This document shows, piece by piece, positions 1 to 6,728 of a stretch of DNA of 46,380 bases. The notes beneath the pieces were generated by a model that saw only the letters and a list, made by a program, of their open reading frames with translations, was not told the origin of the DNA and did no database searches. The stretch comes from a virus: positions 1 to 46,380 of the IMG/VR virus record IMGVR_UViG_3300046777_001757, one strand, 5' to 3'. Position 1 is the stretch's first letter, and each line of letters begins with the position of its first letter. Made by a program: the position numbers and the translations under genes.

Positions 1-31
1 AGTTACTACCGCTGTTACTTAGGTTGCATTA

Positions 32-379
32 ATGAAGTGTCGTCAATGCAATAGCAAGAACACACGTGTTACTTGCACTGATCATTTTGATACATTCACT
101 AAGCGTTACTGCCGATGCCTCGATTGCCATTCAAAGTTTCGAACTGTTGAATACTATGAAGAACGGAAGCCAGGCCCTCCGCTTGGCACACCAAGAACAC
201 GTAACATAACGCGTGGTGAGTCTCATGGTTCTGCTGTGTTTCAAGAGGGGGACATCCGCACGATGCGCACTCTCTATCAACAAGGCGCAACCTTGGTATT
301 CATCGCAACTAAATACGGGACAAGTTCTTCTTACGTGTCACGCATTGTCAACTACAAATCATGGAGCCACATTAAATGA
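32..379 (+). CDS. Zinc-ribbon plus helix-turn-helix DNA-binding protein
   Basis: A 115-residue protein. The N-terminus has two CxxC-type knuckles (C3/C6 and C27/C30 area) in the order seen in the zinc ribbon that opens NrdR-type regulators, but no ATP-cone follows. Residues about 65-110 form a helix-turn-helix of the kind attached to phage resolvases and HNH nucleases (TLYQQGATLVFIATKYG, then SSSYVSRIV as recognition helix). It probably binds DNA as a small regulator; the target is unknown. It overlaps the next gene by four bases (ATGA), so the two are likely co-translated. The domain reading is from visible residues; the regulatory role is inference. Confidence 0.7.
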   Translation: MKCRQCNSKNTRVTCTDHFDTFTKRYCRCLDCHSKFRTVEYYEERKPGPPLGTPRTRNITRGESHGSAVFQEGDIRTMRTLYQQGATLVFIATKYGTSSSYVSRIVNYKSWSHIK

Positions 380-672
380 CCGCTGCTAAATACGACTTCA
401 ACATTGGTGATCGTGTTGCCGAACGTCCCAAGTCACATGGGTTGTTTGCTGTAAGTAAAGAAGCTGAGGAGATTGTTAAACGTAATAGGTCTCAAAGGTA
501 TGGCACTATTGTTGGCTATGACACACAGTTAAACAAAAGTGGTAAGCGCATGAATATGTTGCTTGTGCAATGGGATCACCTTAAATCTCCAATGAAACAT
601 GCAAGGTGTAGGATCTGTCCCATTGATCAGCTTGATGCATTGACAAAACAAATCATTGTCCCAGGGGAATGA
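376..672 (+). CDS. Hypothetical protein
   Basis: A 98-residue basic protein that I do not recognise. It starts on the ATGA shared with the preceding zinc-ribbon gene and stops just before the thyX fragment, so it belongs to the same + strand operon. The middle part (YGTIVGYDTQLNKSG, then MLLVQWDHLKSPM) resembles the small beta-barrel folds (KOW/SH3-like) that are common in short phage proteins, but this is only a sequence impression. No membrane segment or signal peptide is visible. Confidence 0.65.
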   Translation: MTAAKYDFNIGDRVAERPKSHGLFAVSKEAEEIVKRNRSQRYGTIVGYDTQLNKSGKRMNMLLVQWDHLKSPMKHARCRICPIDQLDALTKQIIVPGE

Positions 673-674
673 CC

Positions 675-830
675 ATGAACGTATCACTTGTTTGGGTCAC
701 GCCTCAAGCCGAAGAGTTGATTACACGCATGGCTCGGGTGTCAGCTCCAAAGAACCAAGGGAATATGGATACAGCACCTAAGTTGTTGCGCTATTTAATT
801 ACGCACCAACATTGGAGTTTTAAAGAGTAA
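675..830 (+). pseudogene. Truncated 5' fragment of a thyX gene
   Basis: A 51-codon reading frame whose product matches the N-terminus of the complete ThyX encoded downstream, residue for residue in pattern: LVWVTPQAEELITRMARVS against LVWVTPNAENLIVEMARVS, continuing to LITHQHWS against LLKHKHYS. It stops (TAA) exactly where the complete protein continues with SPYEMANM, so all FAD- and dUMP-binding parts are missing and the product cannot be an active enzyme. The fragment and the complete gene are clearly diverged at the DNA level, so this is not a recent duplication. The endonuclease gene starts five bases after its stop. I read it as the relic of a resident thyX cut by insertion of the endonuclease. 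Confidence 0.8.
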
Positions 831-834
831 ATTC

Positions 835-1353
835 ATGTCTGAATTAAAACAGTGCACTAGGTGCAAAGAAATTAAATCAGTTGATTTGTTTCCACATATA
901 TCAAAAGAAAATAAAAAACGCAGATCACAATGTAAACGTTGTTGTGCAGAATTGCAACGTAAATATTATTCAGATAAACCAGATCAATATAAAGATTATG
1001 TTAAAAAACGTAATCATAAATACCAAGGTATTTACAAAAGAGTTGCAAATCTAAAAACTTTTGGATTAACAGTTAAAGATTATGATGAAATGTTGATTGC
1101 GCAAAACAATCAATGCGCAATTTGTGGAACATTTAAATGTGGGTCAGGCAAGCGTTTTGCTATTGACCATTGCCACCATACTGGTAAGATACGTGGACTT
1201 CTTTGCTTGAGATGCAATCAAGCAATTGGAAAGTTCCATGACAACTATTTCCTTTTACAACAAGCAGCAGATTATGTCGCAGGTCGAATTAGTGTGGGTC
1301 ACCCCCAACGCAGAAAACCTGATAGTGGAAATGGCAAGGGTATCAAATCCTAA
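835..1353 (+). CDS. Endonuclease VII-like homing endonuclease inserted in thyX
   Basis: A 172-residue protein of the recombination endonuclease VII family (His-Me finger fold). An N-terminal zinc knuckle (CTRCKEIKS, then CKRCC) precedes the catalytic region with CAICG, IDHCHHTGKIRGLLC and CNQAIG, the family signature in which the DH and the N of the second cysteine knuckle form the active site. The last 20 or so residues are read from a second frame of the thyX start and look like chance coding, so the natural domain end is near the AADYV residues. The gene is A-rich compared with its neighbours, as expected for a mobile gene. It lies between a thyX fragment and an intact thyX, suggesting a free-standing homing nuclease that targets thyX. 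Confidence 0.85.
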   Translation: MSELKQCTRCKEIKSVDLFPHISKENKKRRSQCKRCCAELQRKYYSDKPDQYKDYVKKRNHKYQGIYKRVANLKTFGLTVKDYDEMLIAQNNQCAICGTFKCGSGKRFAIDHCHHTGKIRGLLCLRCNQAIGKFHDNYFLLQQAADYVAGRISVGHPQRRKPDSGNGKGIKS

Positions 1354-1927
1354 GAATGCAAAAAACACTGAGACTGTTTCACGTTTATTGTCTTATTTGT
1401 TAAAACATAAACACTACTCTCCGTACGAAATGGCTAACATGTGTGTTGAAATCAACACGACACGTGCAATATCTGCACAGATTATTCGCCATCGTTCGTT
1501 TAGCTTTCAAGAATTCAGTCAGCGCTACGCTGATATCAATGAGCTTGGCTCAGCTGTTATCCCACACCTGCGCCGTCAAGACCACAGCAATAGACAAAAC
1601 AGTATCGACGACTTGACATCGGAAGATGTTGCCAACTTCTATCGGCGCATCAGTCAACTCTTTGAGGATACTGAGCATCTCTATCGTGAGATGGTAAGTC
1701 ATGGCATTGCCAAAGAGTGCGCCAGGAACATCTTGCCGCTGGGTACGCAGACTAAGATTTACATGAACGGTTCGCTCCGTTCGTGGATACATTACCTGCA
1801 GCTAAGAACTTCCAATGGAACCCAAGCAGAACACAAACAGATCGCAGAAAAAATCAAACGAATCTTCTGTGCACAATTCCCAGTCATCGGAGAAGCTGTG
1901 TTTTCAGGGGATCCAGGGATTGCCTGA
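1274..1927 (+). CDS. thyX: Flavin-dependent thymidylate synthase ThyX
   Basis: Converts dUMP to dTMP using methylene-tetrahydrofolate, FAD and NADPH. The 217-residue length is normal for the family and the signature RHRSFSFQEFSQRY lies at residues 72-85 (RHR-x7-S). The C-terminal half carries LPLGTQTKIYMNGSLRSWIHYLQLR, split here only by reading, which matches the conserved dUMP-binding region (NILPLGTQT and NGSLRSWIHYLQLR). I chose the ATG at 1274 because homology with the upstream thyX fragment begins there; in-frame ATGs further upstream fall inside the endonuclease gene. It overlaps that gene by 80 bases and is followed by a hairpin terminator. The first third is more AT-rich than the rest, consistent with a chimeric origin. 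Confidence 0.93.
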   Translation: MSQVELVWVTPNAENLIVEMARVSNPKNAKNTETVSRLLSYLLKHKHYSPYEMANMCVEINTTRAISAQIIRHRSFSFQEFSQRYADINELGSAVIPHLRRQDHSNRQNSIDDLTSEDVANFYRRISQLFEDTEHLYREMVSHGIAKECARNILPLGTQTKIYMNGSLRSWIHYLQLRTSNGTQAEHKQIAEKIKRIFCAQFPVIGEAVFSGDPGIA

Positions 1928-1952
1928 GGTTTCTTTTGATCAGCCTGTTGAA

Positions 1953-2072
1953 TCAGACAACAACTTCAGCCGGTTGTTTTTTTAATTCTTTGATGGCACG
2001 CTTAGACTCTACATCCTTGCGTGTTTGTTTTTTCTTTTGGTTTGCCAGGTACACAAGCAGTGCTTGATCCAT
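1953..2072 (-). CDS. Possible small lysine-rich protein, doubtful
   Basis: A 39-codon frame on the opposite strand (MDQALLVYLANQKKKQTR at the start, KKQPAEVVV at the end). It has an ATG start and a composition compatible with a small basic phage protein, but its 3' end covers the thyX terminator, no ribosome binding site is visible, and it would be the only - strand gene in this stretch. It is listed because it fills an otherwise empty gap between thyX and the gene at 2144. Confidence 0.25.
   Translation of the reverse strand: MDQALLVYLANQKKKQTRKDVESKRAIKELKKQPAEVVV
1959..1983 (+). terminator. Rho-independent terminator after thyX
   Basis: Stem AACAAC (1959-1964) pairs with GTTGTT (1973-1978) around an eight-base loop and runs directly into a string of seven or more T. 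It sits about 30 bases after the thyX stop on the same strand. Confidence 0.7.
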
Positions 2073-2143
2073 TATTCTGTATCTGTTGTTACTAAAAGTT
2101 TACTCCAATTGATGTACACCATGTCGTTCACTGTGTAACACAA

Positions 2144-2380
2144 ATGACACCAAACCAATACCAACGCAACGCACGTTTTAATTGTTTGGCAGAGTATGAT
2201 CACTTTGCTAAACCAGATGACTTCATTGAAGTAACCGAATGGTACAACGGTGAAGGCTTTGATGTACACCTCAGCACCAGCGCTGGTGAACAGCGTATGT
2301 CATTTAGCTGGGGTGAATACCAAGCATTGAAAGCAACTCTTGGTGACTGGGCTGAAGACAATTTGGAGGATGAAGAATGA
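2144..2380 (+). CDS. Hypothetical acidic protein
   Basis: A 78-residue acidic protein ending in DNLEDEE. The central part (FIEVTEWYNGEGFDVHLS, then MSFSWGEYQALKATL) looks like a small alpha/beta domain; I do not recognise the family. It begins after the thyX terminator, with GTGTAACACAA just before the ATG, and overlaps the next gene by four bases. It is therefore the first gene of the operon that runs to 3719. Confidence 0.65.
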   Translation: MTPNQYQRNARFNCLAEYDHFAKPDDFIEVTEWYNGEGFDVHLSTSAGEQRMSFSWGEYQALKATLGDWAEDNLEDEE

Positions 2381-2745
2381 CTAAACAAATCAACGGTGAC
2401 AAGTTGTTTGTCATTGATCCACACCCAGTTATTCCACCTTCTGATCAACTAAAGAAGTGGGAAGACAAATGGTTTAATGAAGAAGAACATGCTGATGTTT
2501 TATTTGTCCAGGCATTTCAAGCTGGTGCCGACCAGGAGCTGGAGGCGTGTTGTAAGTGGCTGAAAGATTTCCCGCATTTCATAGGGATTGAAGAACAACT
2601 CCGCGCTGCCCGCCGCCCCCAGCCGCCGAGCTTGAAGGAGCAGGCGCTAACTGCGCTGATGCGGTACACGACTGGTGAAACAATCCTCACCAACGAATCT
2701 GTTGACACCATCCGCCGCGCATTGGAGGCTTTGCCCAATGACTAA
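2377..2745 (+). CDS. Picocyanobacterial-type paralogue family protein, copy 1
   Basis: A 122-residue protein, first of three tandem paralogues with the layout: N-terminal VIPPSDQLKKW, central ADQELEACCKWL, then LRAARRPQPPSLKEQAL and a C-terminal TIRRALEALP. I associate this architecture with freshwater Synechococcus/Cyanobium genomes and their phages; no function is known to me. The N-terminal third has ordinary phage base composition, whereas from about 2520 the sequence becomes GC-rich, suggesting that the repeated module was acquired from a high-GC host. Overlaps with both neighbours (ATGA at 2377, eight bases at 2738) indicate a tightly coupled operon. Confidence 0.75.
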   Translation: MTKQINGDKLFVIDPHPVIPPSDQLKKWEDKWFNEEEHADVLFVQAFQAGADQELEACCKWLKDFPHFIGIEEQLRAARRPQPPSLKEQALTALMRYTTGETILTNESVDTIRRALEALPND

Positions 2746-3362
2746 TCACCCTATTATCCCACCGACAGATCTGGTGCAGGAGTGGCGCGTAGCAGCCAGC
2801 AACGTGCCCGTAACGCTAAGCACGGATCTATGTGGTCGCCGTGACTACATCGACTACATCGCCACCCGCGCCGCCCAATGGGCCGCCGATCAGGAGCTGG
2901 AGGCGTGCATCGGATGGCTTGACCGAAATGGTTACTTCGATTCTGCGCATGATCTTGGCGCCGCCAGACGCCCTAAGCTGCCGAGCTTGAAGGAGCACTT
3001 GCTACGTAAACTCAATCGCATAGGCGATGTGGCTGATAAGTATCAGGACACCCAAGACGCTATCGCTGATCTTCGCCGCGCCCTGGAGGCGCTACCTGAA
3101 TGACTGACTCTCCTTCCTACGAACTGGTGCAACGCTTCATGTACGAAGCCGGTTTTGCTGTTGCAGACCCAGACGATGAGATGGTCTTTCCTGAGGCCAA
3201 GTTCATGAAACTAGCAAGCCGCCTCATCCAGTACGGCTCCGACCAGGAGCTGGAGGCGTGCTGTGAGTGGGTTGGCTGCATGTTTCACGGGCACAAAACT
3301 TGGTCTGATGAACTCCGCGCCGCCAGGCGCCCCAAGCCGCCGAGCTTGAAGGAGCAGGCGCT
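2530..3362 (+). repeat. Two sets of three short direct repeats inside the paralogue genes
   Basis: The 20-mer GACCAGGAGCTGGAGGCGTG occurs at 2530, at 2888 (one base different) and at 3241. A second repeat containing CCGAGCTTGAAGGAGCA occurs at about 2623-2648, 2978-2996 and 3337-3362. They encode the QELEAC and PSLKE segments of the tandem paralogues. Near-identity at the DNA level, while the rest of the genes has diverged, suggests recombination between copies or strong constraint. Confidence 0.8.
2738..3103 (+). CDS. Picocyanobacterial-type paralogue family protein, copy 2
   Basis: A 121-residue paralogue of the genes on either side: PIIPPTDLVQEW at the N-terminus, AADQELEACIGWL in the middle, LGAARRPKLPSLKEHLL and DLRRALEALPE at the end. 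The ATG at 2738 was preferred to an upstream in-frame ATG at 2675 because it gives the family N-terminus (MTNHPIIPP). It overlaps the preceding stop by eight bases and shares ATGA with the next gene. The whole gene is GC-rich compared with the rest of the left arm. Its function is unknown. Confidence 0.75.
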   Translation: MTNHPIIPPTDLVQEWRVAASNVPVTLSTDLCGRRDYIDYIATRAAQWAADQELEACIGWLDRNGYFDSAHDLGAARRPKLPSLKEHLLRKLNRIGDVADKYQDTQDAIADLRRALEALPE

Positions 3363-3450
3363 TGGCATCCTTGATGTGGCTCACCACGATGTTTTAGAAG
3401 ATGATCAAATAGCAACTATCCGCCGCGCACTGGAGACGCTACCTGAATGA
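3100..3450 (+). CDS. Picocyanobacterial-type paralogue family protein, copy 3
   Basis: A 116-residue third member of the tandem family, with GSDQELEACCEWV, LRAARRPKPPSLKEQAL and TIRRALETLPE. The N-terminal 40 residues differ from the other two copies (YELVQRFMYEAGFAV in place of the IPP segment), so the variable N-terminus may carry specificity while the C-terminal module is conserved. ATGA overlaps at both ends place it in the same operon. GC-rich. No catalytic motif can be named. Confidence 0.75.
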   Translation: MTDSPSYELVQRFMYEAGFAVADPDDEMVFPEAKFMKLASRLIQYGSDQELEACCEWVGCMFHGHKTWSDELRAARRPKPPSLKEQALGILDVAHHDVLEDDQIATIRRALETLPE

Positions 3451-3719
3451 CTGAACCTCTCTCCCCCGCCGCGCAGGCGGTGCTGGATGCTGCTGCTGAC
3501 GTTTATTGGGACTGGTCCGACATGTCGCCTGCGTCTTCCTCTACGATTGCCGCCGCCGCGCTGCTAGCTGTTGCGGATCAGGTGGTGCCGGAAGAAGAGT
3601 CGTGCGAAGGAGGATTCTCAGATTCATTTGAGCATCAATGCCGAGCATCTGAACGCAGACTTGTTCGCGCCGAACTCATCGCTATAGCCGAAGAGCTGGA
3701 GGGTGTGACCTCACGGTGA
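3447..3719 (+). CDS. Picocyanobacterial-type SPAAQAVLDAA family protein
   Basis: A 90-residue protein of a second family that I associate with picocyanobacterial genomes: LSPAAQAVLDAAADVYWDW at the N-terminus, then IAAAALLAVADQVVPEE, and a C-terminal helix RAELIAIAEELEG. It is alanine-rich and probably all helical. It follows the three paralogues with an ATGA overlap and shares their high GC content, so the four genes probably arrived together from a host genome. Function unknown. The operon ends here, and a promoter for the next gene follows. Confidence 0.7.
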   Translation: MTEPLSPAAQAVLDAAADVYWDWSDMSPASSSTIAAAALLAVADQVVPEEESCEGGFSDSFEHQCRASERRLVRAELIAIAEELEGVTSR

Positions 3720-3783
3720 TCACTCCGCAAGGTCATTCTCTTACCAGCCAGGGGAAGCAGCAGAAACCCTGACTCCCTCGGGG

Positions 3784-3813
3784 TTGACGCTGCTCTACTA
3801 CACCCTATATAAT
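3784..3813 (+). promoter_or_regulatory. Sigma-70-type promoter
   Basis: TTGACG (3784-3789) and TATAAT (3808-3813) are separated by 18 bases, close to the bacterial housekeeping consensus. A start of transcription near 3820 would place the conserved hairpin element at 3820-3843 at the very 5' end of the transcript of the GP88-like gene at 3867. Confidence 0.75.
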
Positions 3814-3819
3814 CATACA

Positions 3820-3843
3820 CGTCCTAAGCATGACGTTAAACTG
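3820..3843 (+). promoter_or_regulatory. Conserved leader hairpin element, copy 1
   Basis: CGTC, an eight-base loop CTAAGCAT, then GACG, followed by TTAAACTG. The same arrangement occurs at 7239, 8331 and 11891, each time 20-35 bases before a start codon. It could be an RNA hairpin in the leader or a DNA operator. Here it directly follows a promoter. Confidence 0.65.
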
Positions 3844-3866
3844 TTAGTCAACTCAACTCAACTACC

Positions 3867-4634
3867 ATGAAACTTCTCAAGTTTTCTACCGGCAACGGCA
3901 AGCTCAAGAATCGTTTGATCTTCTCGCTGCCAGCGGGATACGCCTGTCCTAACGCAGGTGTGTGTAAGACCATGGCCGATCGTGCCACTGGTTCCATCAT
4001 TGATCTGCCACAACACAACGGCACAACAGCAGATGAGTTCCGCTGCTTTGCTGCCATGGCAGAGGTCAGACCAAACGTACGGGAAGCACGCTGGCACAAC
4101 TGGGATCTGTTGCGTGATGTTATGTATGGCAATGGAAACCAAGCGTTGTTATTGCGTGATCTAATTGACATGTCGCTCAGCATGCAACCACCAAAAGAAC
4201 TGGTACGTGTCCACGAGTCAGGAGATTTCTGGACTGAGAACTATCTCAAGGCATGGCTGATGGTTGCCACGCAACGCCCTAAGCAAAAGTTCTATGCCTA
4301 TACCAAGTCTCTTGGGATGTGGTACAACCTTAAAGATCTGATACCATCCAACTTTTATCTCACTGCATCTTACGGTGGTACGTTGGATTACATGCTGCCC
4401 AAGTATCCAGACGTTTACACACGCATTGCGTATGTGGTGTACACGGAAGAAGAAGCAGCAGAGCGTGGACTTGAAATTGATCATACAGATGAGCTATGCC
4501 TTGGTAACAAACCATTCGCACTCTTGGTTCATGGGTCCCAAAGGGCAGGTACTCCTGCATCTCAAGCGTTGTCTCAACGTAAGAAGGATGGGAAGTTTGT
4601 TGGGTACGGTAAATCAATGCAGAAGATATCCTGA
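3867..4634 (+). CDS. GP88-like conserved phage protein
   Basis: A 255-residue protein that resembles the phage gene product 88 family: KLLKFSTGNGKLKNRLIFSL at the start, a cysteine pair in CPNAGVC, and the central RVHESGDFWTENYLKAWL followed by FYAYTKSLGMW. The family is widespread in phages and has no established biochemical role; the conserved cysteines and the SGDF segment suggest a metal- or ligand-binding enzyme fold, which is inference. It is the first gene after a strong promoter and a leader hairpin, and the leader carries a repeated CAACT tract instead of a Shine-Dalgarno sequence. A weak terminator follows. Confidence 0.65.
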   Translation: MKLLKFSTGNGKLKNRLIFSLPAGYACPNAGVCKTMADRATGSIIDLPQHNGTTADEFRCFAAMAEVRPNVREARWHNWDLLRDVMYGNGNQALLLRDLIDMSLSMQPPKELVRVHESGDFWTENYLKAWLMVATQRPKQKFYAYTKSLGMWYNLKDLIPSNFYLTASYGGTLDYMLPKYPDVYTRIAYVVYTEEEAAERGLEIDHTDELCLGNKPFALLVHGSQRAGTPASQALSQRKKDGKFVGYGKSMQKIS

Positions 4635-4659
4635 ATATCTTGCATTGACAAACAAATCC

Positions 4660-4687
4660 GATAACATCTGACAGTTATCTTCTTGTT
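4660..4687 (+). terminator. Possible weak rho-independent terminator
   Basis: GATAAC (4660-4665) pairs with GTTATC (4674-4679) and is followed by TTCTTGTT. The stem is only six base pairs with an interrupted T tract, so termination may be partial. It lies between the GP88-like gene and the gene at 4691. Confidence 0.4.
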
Positions 4688-4690
4688 CAG

Positions 4691-4924
4691 ATGAGCTACG
4701 TCATTGTCTCCTGGAAATCAGGGGCACCGCATGCGGTACATGCATGCAGCAAAACTAATTCTTTCCAGTTGGTTCCATTAGACTCTGACGTAGCTCTTAC
4801 CAAGATTTTTTCGCATCCGTATCGTGCAGGTGCGCAACAAATTTTAAATTGGATTAACAAGAATGATGACCAGCTCGCCCGTCAAGAACTCGACGTTTAC
4901 GATGAAGCCCAGTTCCGCAAGTGA
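4691..4924 (+). CDS. Hypothetical protein upstream of DNA polymerase
   Basis: A 77-residue protein not recognised. It begins MSYVIVSWKSGAPHAVHAC and ends in a hydrophilic helix (ARQELDVYDEAQFRK). Its 3' end overlaps the start region of the DNA polymerase gene, which suggests translational coupling. No motif, membrane segment or signal peptide is visible. Confidence 0.6.
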   Translation: MSYVIVSWKSGAPHAVHACSKTNSFQLVPLDSDVALTKIFSHPYRAGAQQILNWINKNDDQLARQELDVYDEAQFRK

Positions 4925-6728
4925 TACTTGGCTCGTATTCGATTGTGAGACGGACGGGTTGTACGATCAGGCTACTGTTGTTCATTGCATTGTTATCTAT
5001 GACATCAATAGAAAACAAACTTTTACTTACGGGCCTGATCGTATTACTGATGCTCTTGCTCATTTGGCAACCGCTGATGTACTCCTTGGTCACAATGTAA
5101 TCTTCTATGACATTCCTGTACTAACAAAGCTTTATCCTTCTTTCACGCACAATGCCAGGGTCATCGACACACTTGTGTGCACTCGATTGATCTGGCCAAA
5201 GGAATTACTCAATGACCTTGACACAGAACAATATCCGCAGGTTCCATCGAAACTGCGGGGATCAGCTTCTCTTAAGGCCTGGGGATGGCGCCTGGCCGAT
5301 AATAAAATCAACTTCAAAGACTTCTCGCAATACTCTGAGGAAATGTTGGAGTACTGCGTCCAGGACGTTGTTATTACTACCAGGCTTTGGCAAAAAATCG
5401 CAGACGAATACTATCCGCAATCAGCGCTCAAACTTGAGCATGACTTTGCTATCGCGATTAACCGACAAATTAGATCAGGTATTCCTTTTGATGTTGATGC
5501 ATCTCTTGATCTTGTGGATGAACTACGCACAAAACAACAAGACATCGAGGCAAAGCTAAAAGAAATTTTTCCACCAATCAAACATGAAACAGTATTTATT
5601 CCAAAGGTCAACAACAAGGCTAGGGGTTATGTCAAGGGTGAACCATTTGTCAAGGTTCATTATGAAGAATTTAATCCTGGTTCTCGTCAACAAATTGTTG
5701 ATCGTCTACAAGAAAAGTACGGATGGACTCCTGAAAAAACAACTGAGAAAGGTAATCCAATTCTTGATGACGATGTACTTGAATCACTTTCATACCCAGA
5801 AGCCCAGGTACTAGCTCAATACATGTTGGTCAAAAAACGTTTGGGGCAAATTGTAGATGGCAACAACGCTTGGAACAAGTTGGTTAATAACGACACTGGT
5901 CGCATGCACGGTGATGTTGTTACTAATGGTTGTATCACTGGCCGCTGCGCTCATCGCAACCCAAACATGGGTCAAGTCCCTGCTGGTTACTCACCTTACG
6001 GTAAAGAATGCCGTTCTTTTTTCCATGCTCCTATGGGTTGGCAGCTACTTGGTATCGATGCCAAAGCGTTAGAGCTGCGTTGTCTTGCTGGATATCTAGC
6101 CATTTGGGATGGTGGTGAGTACGCCAAGCTTGTTGTTAATCCTGAATCAGATATCCATACAATCAACCAGGAACTATTTGGTGTGGCTACCAGGGATATC
6201 TCTAAGCGTTTGCTTTATGGATTGTTGTATGGAGCTGGTGCATTAAAGGCTGGTACGATTGTGGATCCGAATGAAAAAGATGAAACAGTTCTGCGTCAAC
6301 TAGGAAGGACTGCAATCAATTCATTCATGAAAGGTGTACCTGCATTGCGTCACCTCAAGGAACAAATTGAGAATACACTTGCGGAACGTACGTATTTGAT
6401 TGGGCTTGATGGTCGTCATTTGTATTGTCGCTCAGCGTTTAAAGGATTGAATGTGTTGTTGCAATCGGCAGGTGCAATCCTTATGAAGCAAGTTGTTATT
6501 ACAATTCAAAACAACATTACCAATAACTTGGGCCTGGTGTATGGAGAAGATTGGGAACAAATGCTGATGATCCATGATGAAATTGAACTTGCGTGTAAAC
6601 CTGAACACACTGCTGCGATCATGGACCAAGCTATGATAGCCTTTCCTCAGGCCCAAGAGTTCTTTGGATTCCGTTGCAAAATTGAAGGCGATGGAAAAAT
6701 TGGAACAACTTGGTATGACGTACATTAA
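4863..6728 (+). CDS. T7-type family A DNA polymerase
   Basis: Replicative DNA polymerase of about 620 residues, close to T7 gp5 in organisation. The 3'-5' exonuclease motif LVFDCETDGL lies near residue 25 and the VIDTLVCTRLIW region follows. Polymerase motif A is LLGIDAKALELRCLAGYL (catalytic D), motif B is KRLLYGLLYGAGALKAG, and motif C is MLMIHDEIELAC. Tyrosine at the motif B position matches T7 polymerase, which tolerates dideoxynucleotides. The start is uncertain: ATG at 4863, 4866 or 4902 all precede the exonuclease motif, and 4902 would reduce the overlap with the previous gene to 23 bases. It is followed after five bases by an HNH homing endonuclease gene. Together with SSB and the PrimPol-helicase it forms the replication machinery. 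Confidence 0.95.
   Translation: MMTSSPVKNSTFTMKPSSASDTWLVFDCETDGLYDQATVVHCIVIYDINRKQTFTYGPDRITDALAHLATADVLLGHNVIFYDIPVLTKLYPSFTHNARVIDTLVCTRLIWPKELLNDLDTEQYPQVPSKLRGSASLKAWGWRLADNKINFKDFSQYSEEMLEYCVQDVVITTRLWQKIADEYYPQSALKLEHDFAIAINRQIRSGIPFDVDASLDLVDELRTKQQDIEAKLKEIFPPIKHETVFIPKVNNKARGYVKGEPFVKVHYEEFNPGSRQQIVDRLQEKYGWTPEKTTEKGNPILDDDVLESLSYPEAQVLAQYMLVKKRLGQIVDGNNAWNKLVNNDTGRMHGDVVTNGCITGRCAHRNPNMGQVPAGYSPYGKECRSFFHAPMGWQLLGIDAKALELRCLAGYLAIWDGGEYAKLVVNPESDIHTINQELFGVATRDISKRLLYGLLYGAGALKAGTIVDPNEKDETVLRQLGRTAINSFMKGVPALRHLKEQIENTLAERTYLIGLDGRHLYCRSAFKGLNVLLQSAGAILMKQVVITIQNNITNNLGLVYGEDWEQMLMIHDEIELACKPEHTAAIMDQAMIAFPQAQEFFGFRCKIEGDGKIGTTWYDVH

Follow-up and report, generated by a model that had tools for sequence, protein, structure and literature searches.

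In fungal mitochondria, mobile open reading frames (ORFs) are known that replace the end of the gene into which they insert. Excerpts of one report place such elements in atp6, atp9, cox2, and nad3 of Glomus sp. and cite atp6 of Allomyces macrogynus as another case (PMC3630166), which is the precedent for duplicated gene ends next to mobile endonuclease genes that the initial annotation of the locus described here had named. The atp6 ends in Glomus share 63.5% DNA identity (PMC3630166). The phage insertions covered by the cited parts of the literature split genes into cooperating pieces (PMC2988022, PMC10448857), as exemplified by mobE in nrdA of Aeh1, mobA in gene 60 of T4, and seg in gene 43 of Aeromonas phage 25 (PMC2988022). 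For nucleases with the DHHRN motif of endonuclease VII (Endo VII), homing activity is proven for F-CphI of cyanophage S-PM2 (PMC6083498). Judging by titles and the opening lines of abstracts in the mainly open-access literature, we found no phage case of a carried replacement gene end. Here, we analyze a phage thyX gene that, from sequence comparisons, very probably harbors a mobile homing unit composed of an Endo VII-type nuclease gene and a changed version of the first 48 codons of its target.

RESULTS

An endonuclease gene lies between two thyX 5′ ends

The DNA analyzed here, called the window, is a virus record of 46,380 bases (IMGVR_UViG_3300046777_001757). Synechococcus phage S-EIVl, from a high-arctic lake, has a DNA polymerase 67.8% identical to that of the window and was the sole phage record at 60% or more in the polymerase search. 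The window phage is a virus of cyanobacteria related to S-EIVl. In S-EIVl itself thyX is uninterrupted, and two genes separate it from the polymerase gene.

Positions 675 to 1927 of the window contain, in this order and on the + strand, a thyX 5′ remnant (675 to 830), an Endo VII-type nuclease gene (835 to 1353), and a complete, chimeric thyX (1274 to 1927). The remnant ORF starts with the ATG at 675 and has 51 codons; an in-frame ATG at 669 would make 53. Its 48 native codons (675 to 818) run to CATTGGAGT, with the TGG at 813 to 815, and in DNA alignments homology to thyX stops after this sequence, at the SPYE codons. The inserted DNA begins at position 819 with the codons FKE, the stop codon (828 to 830), and a short leader of the nuclease gene (819 to 834), and the remnant frame ends with HQHWS-FKE-stop. 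By itself the remnant matched the PHROG thymidylate synthase family (E 3.4e-11) and Pfam Thy1 with an E value of 2.2e-4, below the Pfam cut-off; because of these two matches, its likeness to thyX is not due to chance. The complete gene encodes a protein of 217 amino acids that matches Pfam Thy1 (E 5.1e-47) and aligns with solved ThyX over residues 11 to 209. Its codons 1 to 48 (1274 to 1417) constitute the replacement 5′ end, the last codon of which is TAC (Tyr) and not the native TGG (Trp). From codon 49 to the stop (1418 to 1927), the body is of the phage's own type: like the body of the near-twin contig L085, it is 97% identical in DNA to that of L099, a relative without the nuclease gene. 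The first part of the body, from 1418 on, may include donor sequence acquired by co-conversion. The C-terminal part of the nuclease gene and thyX codons 1 to 27 overlap in different frames over 80 bases (1274 to 1353).

The initial annotation had described this succession of a 51-codon fragment ending at the SPYE position, an endonuclease VII-like gene, and an overlapping full thyX that starts with a diverged duplicate of the fragment, and each of these features was recovered; the two 5′ ends agree at 61% of 46 residues. It had also pointed to an AT-rich thyX start. In the window this holds, with GC contents of 39.6% for codons 1 to 48 of the complete gene, 46.9% for codons 49 to 217, 46.5% for the remnant, 32.3% for the nuclease gene before the overlap, and 46.4% for the window as a whole, but the feature is not general, as the corresponding 5′ ends of L093, L096, and L097 have 44 to 48% GC.

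Two other observations concern the surroundings. A small upstream ORF (32 to 379) has weak PHROG matches to HNH endonuclease (phrog_20467, E 2.4e-10) and is perhaps a relic or a DNA-binding part of another mobile nuclease. At 2377 to 3450, three adjacent ORFs with a common pattern (DQELEA..., ARRPK.PSLKE..., RRALE.LP) form a tandem family, and DNA similar to it is present in many related loci.

The nuclease retains the residues of the DHHRN motif

The 172-residue nuclease matched Pfam Endonuclease_7 (E 2e-22) as well as PHROG families. It shows the motif as set out in the cited part of PMC6083498, two CxxC-type pairs around D-H-x-H followed by R and N, with all residues kept (C94, C97, D111, H112, H114, R120, C124, C127, and N128). 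Profile matches to Hpy99I (E 2.4e-5) and T4 endonuclease VII (E 1.2e-4) were also obtained. Going by these residues, the enzyme is predicted to be catalytically competent. A structure prediction had a mean pLDDT of 54 and was set aside. No thyX was found beside more distant nucleases in 69 loci (L139 to L207) with flanks of at most 3 kb. Two internal virion protein genes flank Endo VII-type genes in T7-like phages of Klebsiella and Yersinia (e.g., OK149215.1, 29801 to 30223, where the match touches the annotation of both neighbors).

The upstream fragment is the native thyX 5′ end

We compared both 5′ ends with the uninterrupted thyX genes of L001 to L005 and L063. The remnant is 73.9 to 87.5% identical to them in amino acids, with 87.5% over 48 codons for the empty-site alleles L002 and L003. 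In contrast, the first 50 codons of the complete gene are only 58 to 68% identical to the same set (58 to 64% for L002 and L003), while the whole complete thyX reaches 71 to 74% with L002 and L003. Since the native genes match the remnant and not the start of the complete gene, the original 5′ end is that of the remnant, and codons 1 to 48 of the complete gene are foreign. These native alleles are a sample, the best 80 of at least 600 stretches. Thus, empty-site relatives that resemble the fragment exist, and the locus looks as the initial annotation had proposed, with a native remnant, a native body, and a foreign 5′ end that would restore the frame.

Searches of viral contigs and phages did not reveal a donor for the replacement 5′ end (best phage match, 67.4%), and the search for relatives in bacterial and archaeal species genomes gave 1 of 203 pattern matches, at 34% identity. 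The new 5′ end is under purifying selection, with 14 synonymous and 0 nonsynonymous codon differences between L093 and L095. A separate case is L208 (phage S-RIP1, HQ317388.1, 22103 to 22733), in which the thyX match is in two pieces with no gene annotated there, perhaps because of a frameshift.

Nuclease and replacement 5′ end occur together

The nuclease used as a query returned L085 (97%) and L083, L084, and L086 (77%). Scanning with the new 5′ end added L092 to L097, each of which has the nuclease gene upstream, truncated in L095. Profile scans with 8 nucleases and with 9 5′ ends yielded the identical set of 10 other contigs as close relatives; in the nuclease profile scan, taken from the best 80 of 96 relatives, these 10 came out on top and the next best reached no more than 53% over part of the protein. 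Including the window, the element is thus present in 11 records, or 9 distinct loci once near copies are collapsed (L083 stands for L083, L084, and L086, with 1 to 4 differences in 6456 bases). The nuclease frame overlaps the thyX start by 80 to 110 bases in all eight loci with a full-length nuclease gene. L085 (IMGVR_UViG_3300032287_002932) has the layout of the window and 96% DNA identity to it over window positions 1 to 2388, and L094 has the same layout with another nuclease allele and another remnant. The layout is therefore not an artifact of a single record or assembly.

Several allele states were found among the relatives. The remnant is kept in the window, L085, and L094, and in L095 (2755 to 3077) it is joined to a nuclease gene without about its first 89 residues, a decayed element. 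The left junctions or the remnant types differ among these four contigs. No 5′ remnant is present in 5 of the 9 loci (L083, L092, L093, L096, and L097), so there remnants are no proof of insertion. In L092 and L097 the nuclease ATG stands in the native thyX start context (TCATGAA, as in L001), and the L094 remnant is flanked by two copies of ATGAAC; a deletion between copies of this type would give the L092/L097 state. L099 (2986 to 3639), a near-identical phage found only by the scan with the new 5′ end, has no nuclease gene, and its DNA is 94% identical to window positions 1 to 797 and 93% to 1292 to 2388. Its thyX resembles the remnant as far as about codon 41 and the element thereafter. 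Because of the element sequence from about codon 42 on, it is not a clean preinsertion allele; it is a recombinant of the remnant and element types, and perhaps a resistant allele. Independently of these states, the chimeric thyX of L094 (3001 to 3641) is disrupted in frame after 95 codons, with homology continuing in another frame; this is a broken gene or a sequencing error.

These data bear on the possibility that the nuclease is an ordinary free-standing homing endonuclease located upstream of thyX, the 5′ end being co-conversion by-catch and the remnant the product of illegitimate joining on the left. The loci in which the nuclease gene directly precedes a complete thyX with no remnant would fit this view, and so would the fact that donor-type sequence seems to run slightly past the junction. 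However, remnants with differing left junctions or types in four contigs, the overlap of nuclease and 5′ end at every full-length locus together with their constant association in the scans, and the native start context of the nuclease gene in L092 and L097, as expected after loss of a remnant, all argue against it. We consider this explanation unlikely for the present unit, although the unit may well have first arisen through a free-standing nuclease gene beside an intact thyX.

5′ ends and bodies have conflicting ancestries

The separate placement of codons 1 to 48 and 49 to 217, proposed in the initial annotation as the way to tell insertion from duplication, revealed strong conflict. In the 5′ tree (codons 4 to 48, 19 rows), the 9 element ends are separated from 10 native ends, including the 4 remnants, with support of 100/99. 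In the body tree (codons 49 to the end, 15 rows), the 8 element bearers require 7 label changes, 5 of which are forced by starred branches, and a single clade of element-bearing bodies is rejected (AU test, p 9.4e-7). L094 was left out of the latter tree because of its disrupted frame, the partial body of L097 (28% of columns) was kept, and L099 was placed in the body tree only; S-EIVl, L210, and the majority of native loci are outside both.

Bodies of element bearers pair with those of uninterrupted relatives, L095 with L003 (94% DNA identity), L093 with L063 (85%; support 86/89, unstarred), and L096 with L004 (82%). The 5′ ends of the same pairs are only 60 to 65% alike, and the three pairings are rejected for 5′ ends (p 4e-4, 6e-6, and 3e-3, respectively), the pairs for these tests having been picked after the identity matrices were known. 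Across the 9 loci, the thyX bodies to which the element is joined fall into at least four kinds. Its right edge is diffuse, with element bearers becoming more similar to their empty-site partners between codon 41 and codon 72. The L092 and L093 nuclease genes are 91% alike in DNA, whereas their thyX bodies are 67% alike, which indicates that the unit is younger than the bodies to which it is joined. A unit present from early on and lost repeatedly thus does not account for this pattern.

Nuclease and 5′-end trees are concordant for the window, L085, and L083, and for L092 with L093 and L094. L097 is discordant, its 5′ end being placed otherwise than its nuclease; a nuclease tree constrained to unite L093 and L097 was not rejected (p 0.061). 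The body of L083 groups with that of the window (support 94/99). The window and L083 may thus share one acquisition, as may L092 and L095, and L093 and L097.

Ordinary homologous recombination among mosaic phage genomes might also have shuffled thyX ends, with the nuclease gene as a passenger. These phages do recombine, as L099 illustrates, but shuffling would not be expected to place the junction at the same codons every time with the nuclease gene always on its upstream side, to preserve every DHHRN residue in the window, or to produce the same layout with a different nuclease at the other end of thyX (see below). We regard such shuffling as very improbable. A tandem duplication of thyX, followed by insertion of a nuclease gene between the copies and divergence in one lineage, would account for two 5′ ends in tandem, but is rejected and can practically be dismissed given the conflicting trees, as the copies fall in different clades and the bodies carrying element 5′ ends do not form one. 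The trees and the recurrence of one site in several thyX backgrounds thus argue for a homing unit that brings its own 5′ end.

In one near-twin pair, the element is younger than the DNA around it

Between the window and L085, the element (819 to 1417) shows 8 changes in 599 positions, versus 81 in 1750 for the flanks (32 to 818 plus 1418 to 2380; Fisher p 9.8e-5). On the left, the two upstream ORFs differ by 5.2% and 6.7% (the latter the adjoining ORF, 376 to 672, with 20 changes in 297 positions), and the remnant differs by 5.6%. Within the element, the inserted leader shows 0 changes in 16 positions, the nuclease gene before the overlap 1.1%, and the new 5′ end 2.1%. On the right, the thyX body differs by 2.5% and DNA farther on by 4.6 to 5.3%. 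An abrupt left edge and a gradual right edge are as co-conversion would give, and the gradual right edge recurs in the pairs L095/L003, L093/L063, and L096/L004.

The remnants of the window and L085 differ by 7 synonymous changes and 1 nonsynonymous change (p 1.2e-4 against neutrality), and the nucleases differ by 1 synonymous and 4 nonsynonymous changes. The former ratio, together with the younger age of the element, indicates that the remnants diverged inside working genes and that the element entered at least one of the two lineages later. By this comparison, transfer took place after the window and L085 lineages had split.

The low ratio could in principle point to a split gene in which the 51-codon piece functions as a peptide of its own, and excerpts of PMC2988022 describe phage homing nucleases in introns or between two working gene pieces. 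There is next to no chance that either applies here: the ratio fits divergence before insertion because the neighboring element is younger, the downstream ORF is a complete ThyX that aligns with solved ThyX, the remnant is fused to nuclease sequence in L095 and absent from five loci, and a mobile group I intron is rejected, as Rfam gave no match up to an E value of 1 in window positions 1 to 5000 on both strands. The sequence evidence for a moving unit that carries a thyX 5′ end is strong.

The replacement changes a conserved Trp

Residue 48, directly before SP(F/Y)E, is Trp in 109 of 114 nonelement loci and in none of the 9 elements, which have Tyr (5) or Phe (4). Native loci without Trp48 are L004 (His), L064 and L071 (Tyr), L078 (Phe), and the recombinant L099 (Tyr). 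The count is based on 123 loci, 8 of them element bearing, with 114 of the 115 others giving a residue and near relatives and L099 included. Trp is encoded by a single codon, TGG. A unit that loses TGG from its target must therefore change the amino acid, here to another aromatic residue. The replacement of Trp48 would thus represent loss of the nuclease target site, and the chimeric thyX is probably no longer cut. The change may also have been inherited from one ancestor of all 9 elements, in which case the same count is expected.

A mirror-image unit is present at the thyX 3′ end

In sister phages, the layout is mirrored at the 3′ end of thyX. L092 contains an HNH-type ORF (3633 to 4364) whose ATG overlaps the thyX stop. 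An AT-rich thyX 3′ end precedes it, and a native thyX 3′-end piece (4219 to 4296), 93.6% identical to L003, follows. L092 thus bears both units, and its thyX is chimeric at both ends. The same HNH-type ORF (90%) is present in L210 and L211 (3001 to 3732; L210 stands for L211), where it is preceded by a changed thyX 3′ end and followed by a second, native 3′ piece; the 5′ end of thyX there is of the native type. A relative (47 to 48%) directly follows thyX in L212 to L214, where a second 3′ piece was not found. The HNH-type ORF had no match in Pfam and matched endonuclease VII and HNH endonuclease families in PHROGs, so a remote common root of the two thyX nucleases is possible.

In the comparison of L092 with L210, identity is 93.4% for the thyX 3′ end, 87.1% for the ORF, 81.3% for the thyX middle, and 86 to 94% for the downstream DNA. 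The evidence for mobility in these comparisons is weaker for the 3′ unit than for the 5′ unit. The mirror-image arrangement points to two origins of the same trick on one gene. In L022 (4004 to 5038), a second copy of the last 62 thyX codons (95% alike) lies 230 bases downstream, with no nuclease gene between.

DISCUSSION

We propose that in a co-infected cell the nuclease would cut the conserved HWSP(F/Y)E codons of an uninterrupted thyX. When the break is repaired against the element-bearing genome, the unit would be copied in, and the old 5′ end would stay behind upstream of it as a short, nonfunctional frame. The new 5′ end would be joined in frame to the recipient's thyX body, and ThyX, presumably with its enzyme activity, would be kept. 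As the new junction is without the TGG-containing site, recutting would be prevented. Later, the remnant may be deleted, the nuclease gene may decay, or recombination between both 5′ ends may remove it and leave a modified thyX that is presumably resistant. Relatives include alleles without the remnant, alleles with a decayed nuclease gene, and recombinant alleles free of the nuclease gene, and the sequence of stages given here is our likely ordering of them. With uninterrupted, occupied, decayed, and recombinant alleles available from near relatives, this cycle is testable in vitro with existing sequences.

A selfish nuclease can thus occupy a protein gene without an intron or an intein by carrying a spare, altered end of its target. 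On balance, we lean toward the view that phages hold natural home-and-rescue drives, in the form of Endo VII-type 5′ and HNH-type 3′ thyX units, each bringing a changed gene end, which can be stacked, as in L092, and can leave resistant alleles, as in L099. Such a strategy may be a general one that has escaped notice in phages, since annotation shows only an intact gene beside a nuclease gene. As thyX is a patchwork gene, whole-ThyX trees from these phages would mislead.

The logic of the spare end is already known from fungal mitochondria and engineered drives. HomeR, as the cited part of its report describes it, is likewise a homing element placed in a needed gene and carrying a rescue of that gene, but it is man-made, Cas9-based, and used in Drosophila, and its likeness to the window unit is in logic only (PMC7968924). 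With the split phage genes, the window shares an endonuclease gene inside the coding region of a replication or nucleotide gene. In those genes, however, the two pieces are two working polypeptides, whereas in the window there is one restored ORF with a new end (excerpts of PMC2988022). F-CphI has the same catalytic motif as the window nuclease, a C-terminal Endo VII domain behind an N-terminal part, and a cyanophage origin. It is free-standing and acts on psbA, and the cited part of its report describes no carried gene end; the comparison made here is one of motif and layout (PMC6083498, in part).

The fungal elements offer the closest parallel. In both cases, an endonuclease gene is inserted together with a foreign, diverged end of the host gene (PMC3630166, in part), the foreign end continues in frame into the native body, the original end persists as an unused remnant, and the inserted and native ends are of different ancestry, as in the 100/99 split of the window. 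The Glomus hybrid transcripts were tested (PMC3630166, in part); the window chimera is predicted from its sequence. The fungal elements, as far as these excerpts go, replace the C-terminal (3′) end, encode LAGLIDADG or GIY-YIG nucleases, and reside in mitochondria; the window unit replaces the 5′ end, encodes an Endo VII-type nuclease, and resides in a phage. The unit thus appears to work like the fungal elements but is not classed as one of them, because gene end, nuclease, and host differ.
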